In this document: piece by piece, positions 35,005 through 41,580 of the stretch
Layout of the letters: every line of letters starts with the position of its first letter
How positions within the stretch are numbered: position 1 is the stretch's first letter
Virus record (IMG/VR): IMGVR_UViG_3300037808_000992
Span: 36,985-100,984 of that record
Direction: 5' to 3' (one strand)
DNA: 64,000 nt
From: a virus
Program-made: the position numbers and the translations under genes
Notes under the pieces: generated by a model
Databases searched by the model: none
What the model saw: the letters and a program-made list of their open reading frames with translations, nothing else
Told to the model about the DNA's origin: nothing

Positions 35005-36465
35005 GTGAGTATCCAATTAAACATCTACCCGAATTACACCTTTATCTCAGGTACCTTTGATCCAGACGTTGTTGATCAAGCCACTCGTTTTAGAAAGAGT
35101 GGTTATCGGCATTCGACCGCTTTTAAAAATAGAGGTTGGGACGGTTATACTCGGTTGTTCAGTAAACCTAAGAGTGCGTTTCCCACGGGTCTTAAAGATC
35201 GGGTTATTCGAATTTATAAAAAGAAGTACCCTAAGGCAGTTTTCGATTTACAAGATCATAGAAATTTTAAGAAAACCAAAAAGATCACTACCAAGACACC
35301 TTCATTAGTTGGGATAACTCTAAGGCCCCATCAACTGCGTGCGTGTAATTCAATGCTTAAGAAGAAGCATGGGGTTTTGTGGGCGAGCACTAATTCAGGA
35401 AAAACTGAATGTGCCATTGCGGTCATTAAAACCTTAAACCTTCCTACCTTATTTTTGGTTAAAGGAAAGGATCTTGTTTTACAAACCTACGAACGTTTTA
35501 AAGCCCGTTTAGGGAGTGACGTAGACGTGGGTATCATCATGGCTGACAAATGGGATCTGCGTAAGTTTACGATAGCCTCAGCCGATACTTTAGCCCGTCG
35601 CTTTAGCCCCACACGAATCACATCTAAATCTGGTGAGAATCAGAGAAAGGTACGTGAGCTATTAGATGACACTCAGGTAATGATTATAGACGAGTGCCAT
35701 AACAGTGCGGCCACTGGGCTTTGGAATATTGGTAGGTACTGCAAAGCTTCCTACCGGTTTGGTCTCAGCGGTACCCCGTTTAAGCGTGGGGATAAACAAG
35801 ACTTAAAACTCATCGCCCTCACGGGAGAGGTGTGCTGCAAGGTGACTAATAAAGAAATGATTGAGCATGGGATCAGTGCTCCTACTGAGATTAAATTTGT
35901 AGAGATAGAACGCCCGAAGCTGGATGCTTACCTAGAGTATGCAGACGCTTACAATGCAGGAGTCTGTAATAACACTTACCGTAACCATGTGATTTGTAGA
36001 GCCACAGAACAATTTTATGATGTCGGTAAGAATGTATTGATCATCGTCAAAAATATCAGCCACGGTAACTTACTCGATAGAATGTTAGATGATTTCAAAC
36101 CTACAGCGTTCATGCCTCATAAGTTTATCCATGGGGACACACCTATTGAAGAGCGCACTGATGCTATTCAAGATTTTAAGAACGGAGTCTTCAAGGTACT
36201 CATCACCAGCAGCATCTTAGATCAGGGAGTAGACATTCCTAATATTGATGTCTTGGTTTTTGCAGCCGCTGGAAAAAGTTATATCCGCGCTATTCAGCGA
36301 GTAGGACGTGGTTTAAGAATAAACGAGGGTAAGGATAAACTTACGGTAATTGATTTTTGCGACAAAACTCACCGCTATTTAGCAAAGCATAGTATTGAGC
36401 GTATCTCTGCGTATAATAAAGAGGATTGTTTCACACTAAGTTTTGTAGATGAGATGGATATATGA
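35005..36465 (+). CDS. uvsW: UvsW-like SF2 DNA helicase
   Basis: This 486-residue helicase remodels branched DNA and recombination intermediates and can unwind R-loops. The N-terminal ~100 residues form a small DNA-binding domain. The helicase core follows: a Q-motif-like LRPHQLRACNSML (~107), Walker A ASTNSGKT (~127-134), the DECH box in IIDECHNS (~230), motif III SGTP (~255), and motif VI QRVGRGLR (~430). DECH and overall size match phage UvsW and related repair helicases. The GTG start lies at the expected transcription start of the promoter at 34971. It heads an operon that continues to 38.26 kb, with the next gene overlapping by ATGA. Confidence 0.88.
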   Translation: MSIQLNIYPNYTFISGTFDPDVVDQATRFRKSGYRHSTAFKNRGWDGYTRLFSKPKSAFPTGLKDRVIRIYKKKYPKAVFDLQDHRNFKKTKKITTKTPSLVGITLRPHQLRACNSMLKKKHGVLWASTNSGKTECAIAVIKTLNLPTLFLVKGKDLVLQTYERFKARLGSDVDVGIIMADKWDLRKFTIASADTLARRFSPTRITSKSGENQRKVRELLDDTQVMIIDECHNSAATGLWNIGRYCKASYRFGLSGTPFKRGDKQDLKLIALTGEVCCKVTNKEMIEHGISAPTEIKFVEIERPKLDAYLEYADAYNAGVCNNTYRNHVICRATEQFYDVGKNVLIIVKNISHGNLLDRMLDDFKPTAFMPHKFIHGDTPIEERTDAIQDFKNGVFKVLITSSILDQGVDIPNIDVLVFAAAGKSYIRAIQRVGRGLRINEGKDKLTVIDFCDKTHRYLAKHSIERISAYNKEDCFTLSFVDEMDI

Positions 36466-36836: not shown

Positions 36837-37402
36837 CGAGTATCAAAGATCCGAAGTCCATAGATTTCATACATAAAATACACATGGCTGATTTGAAAAA
36901 AGGAGGGGGCAAAGGGACTGATAGTATGAGCTTAATCAACCCTTCCTACCTAACTGTTGTGGGTGGCGTAGCTCAGCATTCAAACAAAGAAATATCTCAG
37001 TATTTAGCGCGTAGGAACGCAGGGGTAGAGAAGCTCTACTACAACAGCGGAGCCGTACTAAACCCAAAAGCTAGTTTTGAACTGGTAGATTTAGAGAAGT
37101 TTAAGTTACTTTGCTCAGGTACCAGAGATACACATTTCGTAGGAGTGGCTCTTACATCCAACACCACCCCTATCTTTGGGGCGACTGCGGCAATTGTCTC
37201 AGAGCATCTCTGTGATTTTAAGTGGAGTTGCTCTGAAGGCTCTACTGAAGAAGCTTTATTAAGGCGTATAAAAAAAGAGATTTCTTTCACCTTCGATGCT
37301 TTAGGCAAAGGTCCGACTCCTGAAGTAATTCAGCAGTGTTTTTCAGTAGGTCACAAGCCTACTTTTTATTCTTCTATTATCGTGGGCGCACTAGCTTTTT
37401 AG
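36830..37402 (+). CDS. Unknown 190-residue protein
   Basis: The ATG at 36830 overlaps the previous gene by 7 bp. The protein begins with a helix (IDFIHKIHMADLKK), then a Gly/Lys loop. A mixed alpha/beta body follows, with hydrophobic strands around THFVGVALTSNTTPIFGATA and an EALLRRIKKEISFTFDALG helix. The C-terminus ends in a small beta hairpin. It has four Cys, but they are dispersed. No family is recognised. It sits in the UvsW operon, so expression in the first phase of infection is likely. Confidence 0.55.
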   Translation: MVASIKDPKSIDFIHKIHMADLKKGGGKGTDSMSLINPSYLTVVGGVAQHSNKEISQYLARRNAGVEKLYYNSGAVLNPKASFELVDLEKFKLLCSGTRDTHFVGVALTSNTTPIFGATAAIVSEHLCDFKWSCSEGSTEEALLRRIKKEISFTFDALGKGPTPEVIQQCFSVGHKPTFYSSIIVGALAF

Positions 37403-37414
37403 AGGAGTATTCAG

Positions 37415-37855
37415 ATGCCTTTACCCCCTACCTCAGACACCTACATCAATATTAAGGATGTAGGTGCTACAGATATTATCGAGATTACTCTCTACTCCTC
37501 ACATCCGTTGGAGTATGAGCAATATAAAAAGGGTCGCTTCCGTTGGGCTATCATGGACCAACCGCCCAATAGTGCCAAGGCGGGATACACCACAAAATTA
37601 ACGGGGTCGGTCTCCCAAAACGATCTTACAAATAAGGCCATCCACGTCGTTGGGTCCCCTATGTCAATATACGGCTGGTCAGGTACCCCATTGATGGATG
37701 GTCATTGGGGAGGTCCTCACCTTCCCGCTGTTCCGGCAGAGATCCCCTGGAACTACATCAAAGAGTCTTGGGTGCTTAAAGACTTTGTAGTCAGTATTGG
37801 ATCCCCTCCTACAGAGCGAGCCAGGACAAAGAAACTCAAAGTAATTTTTAGATGA
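37415..37855 (+). CDS. Unknown 146-residue protein
   Basis: It has a good ribosome-binding site (GAGGAG) and overlaps the next gene by ATGA. The protein is beta-rich with several Trp, Pro and Gly residues (YGWSGTPLMDGHWGGP). Its C-terminus is basic (ERARTKKLKVIF). The pattern is that of a compact beta domain, possibly sugar- or nucleic-acid-binding, but I recognise no family. No signal peptide or membrane segment is visible. Confidence 0.55.
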   Translation: MPLPPTSDTYINIKDVGATDIIEITLYSSHPLEYEQYKKGRFRWAIMDQPPNSAKAGYTTKLTGSVSQNDLTNKAIHVVGSPMSIYGWSGTPLMDGHWGGPHLPAVPAEIPWNYIKESWVLKDFVVSIGSPPTERARTKKLKVIFR

Positions 37856-38262
37856 TTAAACTTTTATACAATAAAGGAAACGATACCGTTGAGCTTCATT
37901 ACGCAGGGCACCCTGAATTCACGGCGTATCTACGAAACAACCTAAAGAACGATTTACGAGTTTGGGTGCCTCAATCAATGTGTTGGGTAGTTGTTTCAGA
38001 AGCTCTTAATGAGCTTCTGCCGATTATAGAACAAGAGTTTGATGATGTCGATATTAAAAATTTACCCAAGGATTTCGATAAGCCTAAGAAGTCTAGAAGT
38101 GTTTCTGACTTGGGGAGGTTGCACCTTACTGAAGATGCTCCTGAGTTTTTAATAGCGCCGACGTATAAGCGATTGGTAAAGCAGTATCACCCCGAAGGGG
38201 ATTTACCTGACGAAGATAAATTCCAAACGGTACGAGATGCTTACGAGAGATTGAAAAAATAG
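37852..38262 (+). CDS. Protein with degenerate J-domain-like C-terminus
   Basis: This 136-residue protein has an N-terminal alpha/beta domain (~1-60). Its C-terminal ~35 residues look like helices II and III of a DnaJ J-domain: YKRLVKQYHPEGDLPDEDKF, then a helix with VRDAYERLKK. Canonical J-domains need His-Pro-Asp between these helices to stimulate DnaK. Here the tripeptide is His-Pro-Glu, followed by a Gly-Asp. It could recruit host DnaK (as lambda P/DnaJ do at ori), act as a J-like decoy, or be a coincidental fold. It is the last gene before the replication module. Confidence 0.55.
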   Translation: MIKLLYNKGNDTVELHYAGHPEFTAYLRNNLKNDLRVWVPQSMCWVVVSEALNELLPIIEQEFDDVDIKNLPKDFDKPKKSRSVSDLGRLHLTEDAPEFLIAPTYKRLVKQYHPEGDLPDEDKFQTVRDAYERLKK

Positions 38263-38281
38263 CCCGTCTAGGGAGACGGGC
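38251..38281 (-). terminator. Leftward intrinsic terminator at end of J-domain-like gene
   Basis: GCCCGTCT (38262-38269) and AGACGGGC (38274-38281) form a perfect 8-bp stem with a 4-nt loop. On the minus strand the hairpin is followed by TATTTTTTC (38260-38252), a good U-run. On the plus strand no U-run follows. It should therefore stop leftward transcription. Confidence 0.68.
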
Positions 38282-38320
38282 CATAGTGGGGAAATGTTTT
38301 CAGGGGAGGAAAGTGAAGGG

Positions 38321-38461: not shown

Positions 38462-38490
38462 TTGACACGGGGATAACTCATCGTTACTTT
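38462..38490 (+). promoter_or_regulatory. Sigma-70-like promoter for the replication initiator gene
   Basis: TTGACA (38462-38467), a 17-bp spacer and TACTTT (38485-38490). Transcription would start near 38497, giving a ~77-nt leader before the ATG at 38574. That leader is fully complementary to the proposed leftward RNA. Two GATC sites (Dam targets) lie just after the -10 box. Confidence 0.68.
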
Positions 38491-38506: not shown

Positions 38507-38543
38507 AAAAAAAGGCCCGTGCAGCTACACACTACACGGACCC
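38507..38543 (-). terminator. Leftward intrinsic terminator
   Basis: On the minus strand, GGTCCGTG pairs with CACGGGCC through 8 bp including one U-G wobble, with a 13-nt loop, followed at once by seven T (complement of the A-run 38507-38513). On the plus strand the same position is an A-C mismatch and no U-run follows. The structure is therefore built for the leftward RNA. Confidence 0.75.
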
Positions 38544-38585
38544 AAAACAATTTATACCTAAAGGGAGGTACAAATGAATGTTCGT
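38507..38585 (-). ncRNA. Candidate antisense RNA (OOP-like) over the initiator start
   Basis: A leftward transcript of about 79 nt is predicted, starting near 38585 and ending in the U-run at 38507. Its 5' part is complementary to the start codon (38574) and Shine-Dalgarno GGGAGGT (38563-38569) of the initiator gene. Its 3' part is the terminator hairpin. It has its own -10/-35. The arrangement resembles lambda OOP RNA (77 nt, leftward, beside gene O) and plasmid copy-number antisense RNAs. It would be expected to lower initiator translation. No expression data are available. Confidence 0.6.
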
Positions 38586-40277
38586 AGGAACATTATAAAA
38601 AGCTTGTCAGAGATTGCAATAGGTTTTGACCTATCTCCACTCCAAGTACAGATAATTTTAGATAGTTGGGAAGGGATCCTGCCGAACGTTATTACGCTTC
38701 CGGTTGTTGAAACCACTTATAATCTGAAAAAATCACATGTTTGTAAGCTTCTTTCAAAGCTAGTGCAGTGCAGGATAATAAAAAAATATAGTCGTGGTAA
38801 GTACTTAGTGACGCTGCCTAAAAGAAGGTATAGCCAATTATTTACTCCTCAGGCTACTATACCCGAACCTGTAATAGAGAGTTTGGGGGTGAGGGTGGCA
38901 GAGATAGTTCCGGTTGAATCATTTTTTAAAGAGATTCAAACTAAACTAAACCAAGAAAAGTCACCTTTTTCAGATGGTAGACGAGAAGATCCCAAGGATC
39001 CCTGGGTAGTTTTTAACCCCCCTCAAAAAGAAGAAGTTTTAGCAGAATTGAATTGTGAAAAGTCTAACGAGGACGGGGACTTTCAGCATTTTATTTCCAA
39101 ACTGGAAATTTGGAATGAGCCTCATCCTGAGATTAGCCAGTTCATCAAAGAACACCGAGAAAGAGTACCAAAGACAATTCAACGATTTTCAGAATTGAAT
39201 TGTGAAAAGCCTAATAACAACGATGACTTACAAGAAAGTATTTCCACTCAGATCATTGAATCACACACTGATACACCAGCCGATGAGTCAAATCTAGAAT
39301 TGAATTGTGAAAAGTCTAGTGATAACGATAACTTACAAGAAAGTATTTCCAATGAAGACACTCCGAATGAGTCCTTCTTAAAATCCCATTATAATAATAC
39401 ATATAATAATAATACTCTTACTAGTAATCGATCTCAGAAAGAAGAATATAAGATTATTAAAGAGTATTACGAGGGTACTACCGAAGTGAAAAACTCTAAA
39501 TCTGACATTGAGATGTGTGAGTTAGAGATTCCAGATGCGGATTGGAAAGAGCCTCATTCTGATGAAGAGTTTGAAGTACCTAAGAGTGCTGTTCGTCCGA
39601 AAGAAGAATTCACTATTGAGCTTTATGGTTTTCAAGTGATGGTGACAGGGCAAGAGGCATTAGAGTTTGCTTTAGCTTACGAAGGAAAGCTCAAGGAGTA
39701 TCTGAATCAACCATTCCTGAAGATTATCTCTGGGGGCTATCTCTGTAAGTCAAAGCGTAGTTATAAGAATCATGTGAACGGCGCTGCTATCTGTAAATGG
39801 AACAAGTTTAACGTTCGTCGATTCATTGAGGCTCAGTTCTTTCTTCACAATGATTGGAAGGGGACTGCTCCCAGCATAAAGTACATTACTTCTGTCGGCG
39901 GTTCATGGGGTTCAGAATCCCGGTATAAGAATTACTGCACCCGCTTTAAAGATGATTTGGATTACTTTAGTGAGGGGGAGGATAACATTGAACGTACCGT
40001 GTTCATTGACCGCACTCCCGATCCCGAACAAGAGATGAGAGTTCGACATATCGCTGTGTCTCAGAATGAAGCTTGTCTAGAGCATTACGCCAATCAAGGT
40101 ATGAGCGAGTATGAGACTTTGAAGTTCCTTTGTGTACCGGGGGAGATGCACCTCCCTGGGTGGTTTGTAGAGGATAGACCCACATATCACCAGTTGTTGA
40201 AAGACCGGGCGTGGGGGGAGTTAGCTGACAGTAATGAGTTTTGTAAAAAGGTGATGGCGAAGATAGATCATGTTTAA
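38574..40277 (+). CDS. Putative replication initiator with internal iteron repeats
   Basis: This 567-residue protein has an N-terminal winged-helix domain (~10-85; KKSHVCKLLSKLVQCRIIKK then a basic wing SRGKYLVTLPKRR). A long flexible acidic middle (~100-350) contains three copies of E-L-N-C-E-K, each followed by an Asp/Asn-rich stretch and (copies 2 and 3) LQESIS. A folded C-terminal part (~355-560) includes an Arg/Lys-rich helix near RFIEAQFFLHNDWKG. The plan equals lambda O: N-terminal DNA-binding, repeats encoding the origin, C-terminal partner-binding domain. It immediately precedes and overlaps the replicative helicase gene. A helicase-loader role is the alternative. The ribosome-binding site GGGAGGT supports the ATG at 38574. 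Confidence 0.6.
   Translation: MNVRRNIIKSLSEIAIGFDLSPLQVQIILDSWEGILPNVITLPVVETTYNLKKSHVCKLLSKLVQCRIIKKYSRGKYLVTLPKRRYSQLFTPQATIPEPVIESLGVRVAEIVPVESFFKEIQTKLNQEKSPFSDGRREDPKDPWVVFNPPQKEEVLAELNCEKSNEDGDFQHFISKLEIWNEPHPEISQFIKEHRERVPKTIQRFSELNCEKPNNNDDLQESISTQIIESHTDTPADESNLELNCEKSSDNDNLQESISNEDTPNESFLKSHYNNTYNNNTLTSNRSQKEEYKIIKEYYEGTTEVKNSKSDIEMCELEIPDADWKEPHSDEEFEVPKSAVRPKEEFTIELYGFQVMVTGQEALEFALAYEGKLKEYLNQPFLKIISGGYLCKSKRSYKNHVNGAAICKWNKFNVRRFIEAQFFLHNDWKGTAPSIKYITSVGGSWGSESRYKNYCTRFKDDLDYFSEGEDNIERTVFIDRTPDPEQEMRVRHIAVSQNEACLEHYANQGMSEYETLKFLCVPGEMHLPGWFVEDRPTYHQLLKDRAWGELADSNEFCKKVMAKIDHV
38592..38619 (-). promoter_or_regulatory. Leftward promoter for antisense RNA
   Basis: On the minus strand TTGCAA (38619-38614), 16 bp, and a perfect TATAAT (38597-38592). 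Initiation about 7 nt further would be at A 38585. The promoter lies inside the first codons of the initiator gene. Confidence 0.62.
39044..39314 (+). repeat. Three identical 19-bp direct repeats (candidate iterons)
   Basis: AGAATTGAATTGTGAAAAG occurs exactly at 39044-39062, 39191-39209 and 39296-39314. Centre-to-centre spacings are 147 and 105 bp, both multiples of 10.5 bp, so all copies lie on one face of the helix. Codon choice (GAA TTG AAT TGT GAA AAG) is identical in all three. An AATTGAATT inverted element lies inside each copy. Confidence 0.7.
39376..39428. other. AT-rich tract after the iterons (candidate unwinding element)
   Basis: A ~53-bp stretch made almost only of A and T, with ATAATAATA-type runs, starts about 60 bp after the third repeat. 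In lambda ori an AT-rich unwinding region also follows the iterons inside gene O. The tract encodes a Ser/Asn/Tyr/Thr-rich linker, so there is little protein-level constraint. An origin role is an inference. Confidence 0.5.
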
Positions 40278-41580
40278 TAATACAGAATACAATTTAGATG
40301 ATGAGTTCGATGAGGGTTTTCAGGTAGGTATTTTATCCCTGATGTATAAAGATTCTCAGTTCCTGGGTTATGCCAGTGAAAATTTAAAACCTAACTTCTT
40401 TGCTAATAAAGACCTTGCTTGGTTCTTCAATGCCATGCGTTCGCATTATGCGAATTCCCGACAGGTTATCACGGAGCGTGCGTTACGAGACCGTCTTAAG
40501 GTTTCGGTAAAAGAGCATGAGGTAGATAGATCTCGGGTAAATATTTTTCAGCAATTGTTCAAATCTATTAACTCCGATGAGTTGTCCGATGCGGGGCATC
40601 TACAGGATCGGGTGGTGGAGTTTGTAAAGCGTAGCCTGATGAAGAAGGCGTTTTCAGAAGCGTATCTGGCGTATGAGAAGGGCGAGTACGAGGGCATCTC
40701 TTCGCTCTTTGACAAGGCGTACCAGAAGTCAGACCTCTTGGTAAACACAGGGCAGTCTTATCTGGACATGGAGTCTTTTGACGAACGGATGCACCGGAAA
40801 AGTTTAACCGTCAACACGATTCCTACGGGGGTTGGTGAGTTAGATAATTATCTGCGCGGCAGAGGTTTGGGTGAGAAAGAGCTTGGGGTGATTTTGGCCC
40901 CTACTAATCGTGGTAAATCCATGTTTCTTAAATCGATTGCTGAATACAACATGTTCAAGGGAAGGAAAGGACTCATTTTTACTTTGGAGATGAGCGAGGA
41001 TCGTTACTTTGATCGCTTTGATATGAGCGTTGCGAACATGACTTCTGATGGAGTTAATGAAAACAAGGATAAGGTTCGTAATACGATAGAATCATTGAAG
41101 AACGATCCTAAGATGGGACAGGTTCATATTAAAGAATACCCAACCAAAGGAGCGTCGGTAGATACTTTACGTGCTTACTGTGAACGCTTACGTCGTGGTG
41201 GATTCTTTCCCGATTTTATCGTGGTGGATTATGCAGACCTGTTGAATTCTAGTGTGAAGTACAGTGAGGAACGTCATGTCCAATCCCATATCTACAAACG
41301 ATTGAGAGGGTGGGCTGCTGAAGACAACCTCCCTATTTGGACAGCTACCCAGGCTAATAGAGGTTCTCTGAGTAAGAGCCAAGTAACCATTGCAGACATC
41401 TCTGAAGACTTTGGAAAGGCGATGATTGCTGATGTGATCGTTGCACTGTGCCAAACTAAACAGGAAAAGCAGAATGAGCAGATGCGCTTGTTGTTGACTA
41501 AAAACAGAGACAGTACGGCAGGCGTGGAAGCGTTGATAAATACCGACTTTGCCCATGGCAAATTTGTACTGGGGAGCTAA
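40270..41580 (+). CDS. dnaB: Replicative DNA helicase, DnaB/gp41-like
   Basis: This 436-residue RecA-fold helicase would encircle and unwind the lagging strand at the fork. The N-terminal domain (~1-150) is helical, as in DnaB. The ATPase domain carries Walker A APTNRGKS (~211-218), an acidic residue after TLEMSED, Walker B FIVVDYADLL (~318-327) and a motif with WTATQANRGS (~356). The length fits DnaB/gp41 enzymes. It overlaps the initiator gene by 8 bp, so stoichiometry may be coupled. No separate loader gene (lambda P, T4 gp59) is visible, and the upstream initiator-like protein may do that job. Confidence 0.88.
   Translation: MFNNTEYNLDDEFDEGFQVGILSLMYKDSQFLGYASENLKPNFFANKDLAWFFNAMRSHYANSRQVITERALRDRLKVSVKEHEVDRSRVNIFQQLFKSINSDELSDAGHLQDRVVEFVKRSLMKKAFSEAYLAYEKGEYEGISSLFDKAYQKSDLLVNTGQSYLDMESFDERMHRKSLTVNTIPTGVGELDNYLRGRGLGEKELGVILAPTNRGKSMFLKSIAEYNMFKGRKGLIFTLEMSEDRYFDRFDMSVANMTSDGVNENKDKVRNTIESLKNDPKMGQVHIKEYPTKGASVDTLRAYCERLRRGGFFPDFIVVDYADLLNSSVKYSEERHVQSHIYKRLRGWAAEDNLPIWTATQANRGSLSKSQVTIADISEDFGKAMIADVIVALCQTKQEKQNEQMRLLLTKNRDSTAGVEALINTDFAHGKFVLGS

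Follow-up and report, generated by a model that had tools for sequence, protein, structure and literature searches.

A leftward promoter-terminator unit over the start of a candidate replication initiator gene is conserved in a group of large phages and predicts a cis-antisense RNA

The replication region of a large phage raised the question of whether a short leftward RNA limits the translation of the protein encoded directly 5' of the DnaB-like helicase. The stretch of DNA analyzed (the window) comprises 64,000 nucleotides and corresponds to positions 36985 to 100984 of the 100,984-bp IMG/VR virus record IMGVR_UViG_3300037808_000992. The long open reading frames (ORFs) of the window are rightward, essentially without exception, in agreement with the initial annotation, which had described all other convincing genes as rightward. 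Analysis of the gene order revealed a UvsW-like helicase gene, three small genes, a J-domain-like gene, a gap of 311 nt, a 567-aa ORF, and genes for a DnaB-like helicase, a primase, and DNA polymerase A. The following features of this region were identified:

35005 to 36465: UvsW-like helicase gene
37852 to 38262, plus strand: upstream gene whose product has a J-domain-like C-terminal segment (DnaJ, 26.0 bits, just below the Pfam cutoff)
38462 to 38490, plus strand: rightward promoter-like site TTGACA-17-TACTTT (rank 9 on the plus strand)
38562 to 38569, plus strand: Shine-Dalgarno sequence AGGGAGGT of the target gene
38574 to 40277, plus strand: target gene (567 aa), candidate replication initiator or organizer
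40270 to 41580, plus strand: DnaB-like replicative helicase gene, directly 3' of the target gene

The J-domain-like gene forms the left edge of the 311-nt control region, and a like-placed counterpart was observed in three relatives described below (L094, L099, and L100). Because DnaJ of the host acts on the helicase complex in lambda, the J-domain-like protein encoded beside the DnaB loader region is possibly a phage-borne co-chaperone. Directly past the stop codon of this gene lies another terminator-like hairpin, also leftward and followed by a T-run (38259 to 38284, minus strand; -17 kcal/mol). It is preceded only by a weak leftward promoter-like site (38468 to 38439), its T-run overlaps lysine codons, and no counterpart was seen in the relatives.

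The initial annotation had proposed that the minus-strand motif TTGCAA-N16-TATAAT, together with a hairpin and seven T ending at 38507, gives rise to a leftward RNA of about 79 nt complementary to the Shine-Dalgarno sequence and ATG of the target gene. The positions of both elements and the predicted coverage were confirmed. The unit consists of the following features:

38592 to 38619, minus strand: leftward promoter-like site (-35 box TTGCAA at 38619 to 38614, 16-nt spacer, -10 box TATAAT at 38597 to 38592)
38545 to 38583, minus strand: 5' hairpin of the antisense RNA, with the Shine-Dalgarno complement in the loop CCCUUU and the adjoining stem
38513 to 38543, minus strand: intrinsic-terminator hairpin (13 predicted pairs, three of them G-U), followed by seven U (38513 to 38507)
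38507 to 38585, minus strand: predicted antisense RNA of about 79 nt over the Shine-Dalgarno sequence, the ATG, and the first codons of the ORF starting at 38574

The leftward promoter-like site lies within codons 7 to 16 of the target ORF and matches the consensus at 10 of 12 positions. It was the second-ranked minus-strand site of the 64 kb in a position-weighted scan with an approximate E. coli sigma-70 matrix, which may differ from that of the host. The terminator, at -22.2 kcal/mol, has the lowest energy among the hairpin and T-run sites on both strands of the window, and its hairpin (38543) is spaced 48 nt from the promoter (38592). The 5' end of the RNA was estimated to lie about 7 nt downstream of the -10 box, and the 3' end was taken from the terminator. 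No ORF is visible on the leftward RNA. An Rfam search with its sequence returned nothing at the gathering score and, below threshold, matches to terminator-bearing small RNA families only.

The predicted 79-nt RNA forms two hairpins on the minus strand, the 5' hairpin and the terminator. Folding of the unit yielded -33.9 kcal/mol (z score, -6.2) for the minus strand versus -16.0 kcal/mol (z score, -1.8) for the plus strand; for the terminator stem alone, the values were -22.7 and -9.8 kcal/mol, respectively. This asymmetry arises because G-U pairs of the minus strand are A-C mismatches on the plus strand. The initial annotation had recognized the asymmetry but understated it, reporting one such pair; the terminator hairpin has three G-U pairs, and the 5' hairpin has a further one. 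The position of the rightward promoter-like site implies that the expected mRNA leader (start at about 38497) includes the entire complement of the antisense RNA.

The target protein of 567 aa had no match in Pfam or PHROGs. The family phrog_14232, to which SPO1 gp20.1 belongs, was matched by 4 of 12 members of the target family (best E value, 3e-4), and gp20.1 occupies the equivalent place between UvsW and DnaB. At the sequence level, homology between the target and SPO1 gp20.1 is weak. Its C-terminal domain is conserved, being common to the relatives and shared weakly with gp20.1. The AlphaFold model of the target is confident in the C-terminal domain only and contains a long low-confidence middle part, and the modeled N-terminus looks, at low confidence, like a winged helix. 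A fold search with this model returned weak winged-helix matches only, N-terminal as judged by their length, and nothing convincing for the C-terminal domain. Given the match to the gp20.1 family, the place between UvsW and DnaB, and the low-confidence winged helix, the name replication initiator, used in the initial annotation, is reasonable but unproven. The target ORF also contains three direct repeats, each beginning with AGAATTGAATTGTGAAAAG[TC]CTA, at 39044 to 39371, spaced 147 and 105 nt apart. The lambda O gene contains iterons, of which these repeats are reminiscent; the array has no counterpart in the relatives examined.

Relatives of the locus were recovered with DnaB and initiator alignments of two to five sequences. 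Searches by DNA or by initiator protein in the phages collection found none, single-protein scans gave no useful relatives, a scan with the UvsW helicase returned distant loci only, and no relative was found in a prophage and host scan of genomes. One further locus, L008, was rejected for comparison because its contig ends inside the gene start; a search of the rest of that record for a relative of the upstream J-domain gene was negative. The orthologous start was readable in eleven contigs, window included, and six of these (the window, L099, L112, L116, L094, and L100) carry the unit. In each of the five relatives, the orthologous gene contains a leftward promoter, and just 5' of its start lies a terminator that is strictly leftward. 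The promoters are TTGACA-18-GATAAT in L099, L112, and L116, TTGACT-17-TAGCAT in L094, and TTGACA-17-TAGATT in L100. Terminator energies are about -22 kcal/mol in the window, -19 in L099, -21 in both L112 and L116, -27 in L094, and -16 in L100, and in all lineages a U-run flanks the hairpin on the leftward side only. The length of the predicted RNA varies by lineage between about 60 and 125 nt. A facing rightward promoter-like site is present in every lineage (TTGACG-17/18-TA..T in L099, L094, and L100 and, by eye, also in L112 and L116), with the convergent start sites about 85 to 155 nt apart.

The sequence of the unit is largely unconserved between lineages; these are too diverged to align, so that what is conserved is architecture and not letters. 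Judged from the sequences, the promoter of L099, L112, and L116 is common by descent, and the codons under the -35 box of L100 may be common to L100 and these three. This kinship puts the number of independent lineages between three and four. The initial annotation had suggested a search of related phages for covariation that keeps the minus-strand hairpin, and such changes were found: the terminator stem of L099 differs from that of L112 and L116 by three double compensatory changes (G-C to A-U, U-A to C-G, and A-U to G-C). The 5' hairpin of this group also retains minus-strand G-U pairs. In five of the six unit-bearing loci, the minus strand has the stabler fold and more G-U pairs; the exception is L100, in which the plus strand folds slightly better. 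The antisense RNA covers the full Shine-Dalgarno sequence in all six loci and usually the start codon as well. The Shine-Dalgarno complement is mostly unpaired within the RNA in five of the six (0.83 to 0.99), whereas in the window its openness (0.35) does not exceed the average. For L094 and L100, the prediction is simply an unpaired 5' tail followed by the terminator hairpin.

The leftward unit is absent from the five remaining relatives (L114, L117, L119, L122, and L123), whose DnaB proteins are 58 to 60% identical. The target protein of these phages is shorter (258 to 272 aa), its N-terminal part is missing, and a rightward terminator is located past the upstream J-domain gene. Folding of their gaps revealed a few conserved hairpins and no promoter-terminator unit. 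The gap before the initiator gene holds a conserved T-rich tract, GGTACTTTTTT, and the hairpins CAGTCGCT..CGCTCCTG and GTGGC..GGTCGCCAC, which perhaps represent a different control region or an origin. In the DnaB tree, which was rooted by distant outgroups and has some moderate supports (83 to 94, ultrafast bootstrap), the five form one group inside the clade, and both branches of its deepest split include unit-bearing members. The simplest reading of this placement is that the unit was present in the ancestor and was lost once, and the unit therefore looks ancestral in the clade. The initial annotation had counted loss of the unit in close relatives against its proposal; such loss was observed in part, in one derived group that also lacks the N-terminal part of the protein.

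The frequency of comparable arrangements was determined in shuffled and natural DNA. When the whole window was subjected to 200 dinucleotide shuffles, 3 of the resulting sequences contained one comparable promoter-terminator pair, anywhere and on either strand. Among 1,832 gene starts in 1.75 Mb of other phage loci, two had a unit over the start. When looser thresholds were applied to gapped starts (gene starts with an upstream gap of at least 120 nt) in 188 other phage loci, the count was 1 in 372. Within the loci that carry the unit, it was found at six of six target starts versus none of 18 other gapped starts. The score thresholds behind this contrast were chosen once the first four loci were known; L112 and L116 were added later, and looser thresholds gave the same contrast. 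In the window, L099, L094, and L100, the unit is the sole minus-strand promoter-terminator pair.

We consider it probable, though well short of certain, that a cis-antisense RNA from the leftward unit represses translation of the replication protein; the conserved unit, its orientation, and its coverage of the Shine-Dalgarno sequence are evident from the sequences, and transcription of the RNA, the repression, and the initiator role are inferred. A promoter in the first codons of the gene and a terminator just 5' of its start would produce a short untranslated RNA from each genome. The rightward mRNA would begin at the promoter just beyond the leftward terminator, and the antisense RNA would pair with its 5' leader, its Shine-Dalgarno sequence, and usually its start codon. 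Pairing would block ribosome binding at the target start, the duplex would probably be exposed to RNase III, and head-on RNA polymerases might add to the repression. Because every genome copy would make the RNA, repression would grow with copy number, and initiation would be under dosage-dependent negative control, provided that the RNA is made constitutively. A real switch limiting the replication protein is probable because other lineages have a promoter-plus-terminator unit at the same place; the limitation would resemble the control of copy number in some plasmids. The initial proposal that an antisense RNA tunes initiator translation is strongly supported by conservation of the unit at the orthologous start across four lineages, with the identity of the initiator as its conjectural part.

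The main competing explanation is that leftward transcription itself matters, through polymerase collision and/or topology at a nearby origin, and that the RNA is a by-product. Lambda provides a precedent in pO, which is located at the O gene, reduces pR transcription, and affects origin activity (PMC3985674). The convergent promoters of every lineage and the iteron-like repeats of the window would fit such an arrangement, but the repeats were not found in the relatives, and the model requires neither a structured, strand-biased RNA, nor coverage of the Shine-Dalgarno sequence, nor compensatory changes in the stem. We regard it as unlikely. It is also conceivable that the hairpin serves the rightward mRNA as a 5' leader element (for stability, translation control, or protein binding) and that the leftward promoter is fortuitous. 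The hairpin arms do pair on both strands in L094, L099, L100, and L112; in all lineages, however, the U-run follows the hairpin on the minus strand only and a promoter lies at the right distance upstream, and in the window, as in most relatives, G-U pairs favor the minus strand, which makes a leader element improbable.

Transcripts serve some phage origins, and the leftward transcript could prime leading-strand synthesis, or form an R-loop for it, at an origin in the control gap. The gap is AT-rich, the GC minimum of the window falls at 38 to 40 kb, and the site adjoins the gene for the candidate helicase organizer. We give this explanation very little credence: in every lineage, strong intrinsic terminators would stop the RNA within about 60 to 125 nt, the phage has a primase gene of its own, no GC-skew switch was found at the site, and the idea that lambda OOP acts as a primer was abandoned (PMC3985674). 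Coincidence of promoter-like and terminator-like sequences is the least probable account. Single elements of this quality do arise by chance (each shuffled window had about 29 promoters and 14 terminators), but the pair recurs at orthologous starts in three further lineages, against the background per gapped start given above.

Comparison of the antisense unit with known systems showed that it is most likely closest in design to RNAII of plasmid pMV158 and in position to lambda pO/OOP. RNAII is a short cis-encoded antisense RNA with a 5' part, an intrinsic-terminator hairpin, and a U-tail, which inhibits translation of the replication initiator gene repB (PMC4485353). The unpaired 5' tail and terminator of the L094 and L100 RNAs resemble this layout, and the RNAs of the window and all five relatives are likewise antisense to the region in which translation of the target begins. 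The likeness is one of design: RNAII has 48 nt, belongs to a rolling-circle plasmid, and acts with the co-repressor CopG, whereas the RNA of the window has an extra 5' hairpin and is encoded by a large phage. Lambda OOP is a 77-nt leftward RNA that is made from a promoter at the start of the replication initiator gene O and is ended a short distance upstream by an intrinsic terminator; it is antisense to cII and not to the O ribosome-binding site (PMC3985674, PMC12197685). The term OOP-like, used in the initial annotation, therefore holds for the leftward promoter at the start of the candidate initiator gene and the short, intrinsically terminated RNA, both also predicted in relatives, but not for the target. 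Unlike in lambda, the promoter of the window lies within the ORF, and the Shine-Dalgarno sequence of the target itself is covered by the RNA, which stops at 38507 and leaves about 245 nt to the upstream J-domain-like gene (end at 38262). As the defining cII target is absent, the unit was not classed as a member of OOP.

P22 sar, a cis-antisense RNA of 68/69 nt, blocks the ribosome-binding site of ant (PMC7968456, PMC12197685). It is similarly short, phage encoded, and located over a ribosome-binding site, but its target is the antirepressor of a temperate phage and not a replication gene. From these analogies, pMV158 RNAII or P22 sar is a better mechanistic match than OOP. The antisense RNA ArrA of Bacillus subtilis overlaps the 5' leader of dnaA and lowers the dnaA level (PMC12112137), as the RNA of the window overlaps the leader of a candidate initiator gene. 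ArrA differs in that it has 267 nt, is chromosomal, overlaps upstream of the dnaA ORF, is repressed by DnaA, and is thought to affect mRNA stability (PMC12112137). Among the published small RNAs of phage K, snc005 is the one antisense to a gene 5' end; it was rejected as a parallel because it is listed against gp186, which is annotated as a membrane protein encoded upstream of the terminase genes and is not a replication protein. The available portion of the account of the Listeria P100-like phage CKA15 describes no antisense RNA over a replication gene, and our literature search, which had incomplete coverage, found no conserved antisense unit directed against a replication gene in large phages. 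Antisense RNAs that block initiator translation in plasmids, cover a ribosome-binding site in P22, and overlap dnaA in B. subtilis are known.

In most Okuboviruses examined, a leftward terminator-like hairpin with a T-run was found upstream of gp20.1. In SPO1 (L005, 2064 to 2092) and the SPO1-like phages L006, L106, L107, L110, and L111, this hairpin is near-invariant, TTTTTGTCCTAC-NNNN-GTAGGACAAAAA, with the T-run on the minus strand and a loop that is inverted between phages (GAAG/TTCG). In the three phages that were scanned and have a settled start, the hairpin is 48 to 77 nt upstream of gp20.1; in phiBsKO1 the distance, measured from the match start, is 104 to 140 nt. No good leftward promoter was found near the hairpin in the SPO1-like phages examined.

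Plasmids offer textbook examples of antisense control over initiator translation. That plasmid-style antisense copy control is ancestral in an entire group of large, myophage-like viruses and may extend to the SPO1-like Herelleviridae is a speculative idea that we consider doubtful. If it were true, the onset of replication in virulent phages would be timed by an RNA that senses gene dosage and not by transcription classes alone. If the antisense RNA of the window does repress its target, it would offer a large phage a simple way to set the level and timing of its replication, with gene dosage as the sensor, and the unstudied protein family encoded 5' of phage DnaB, including SPO1 gp20.1, would gain a testable regulatory role.
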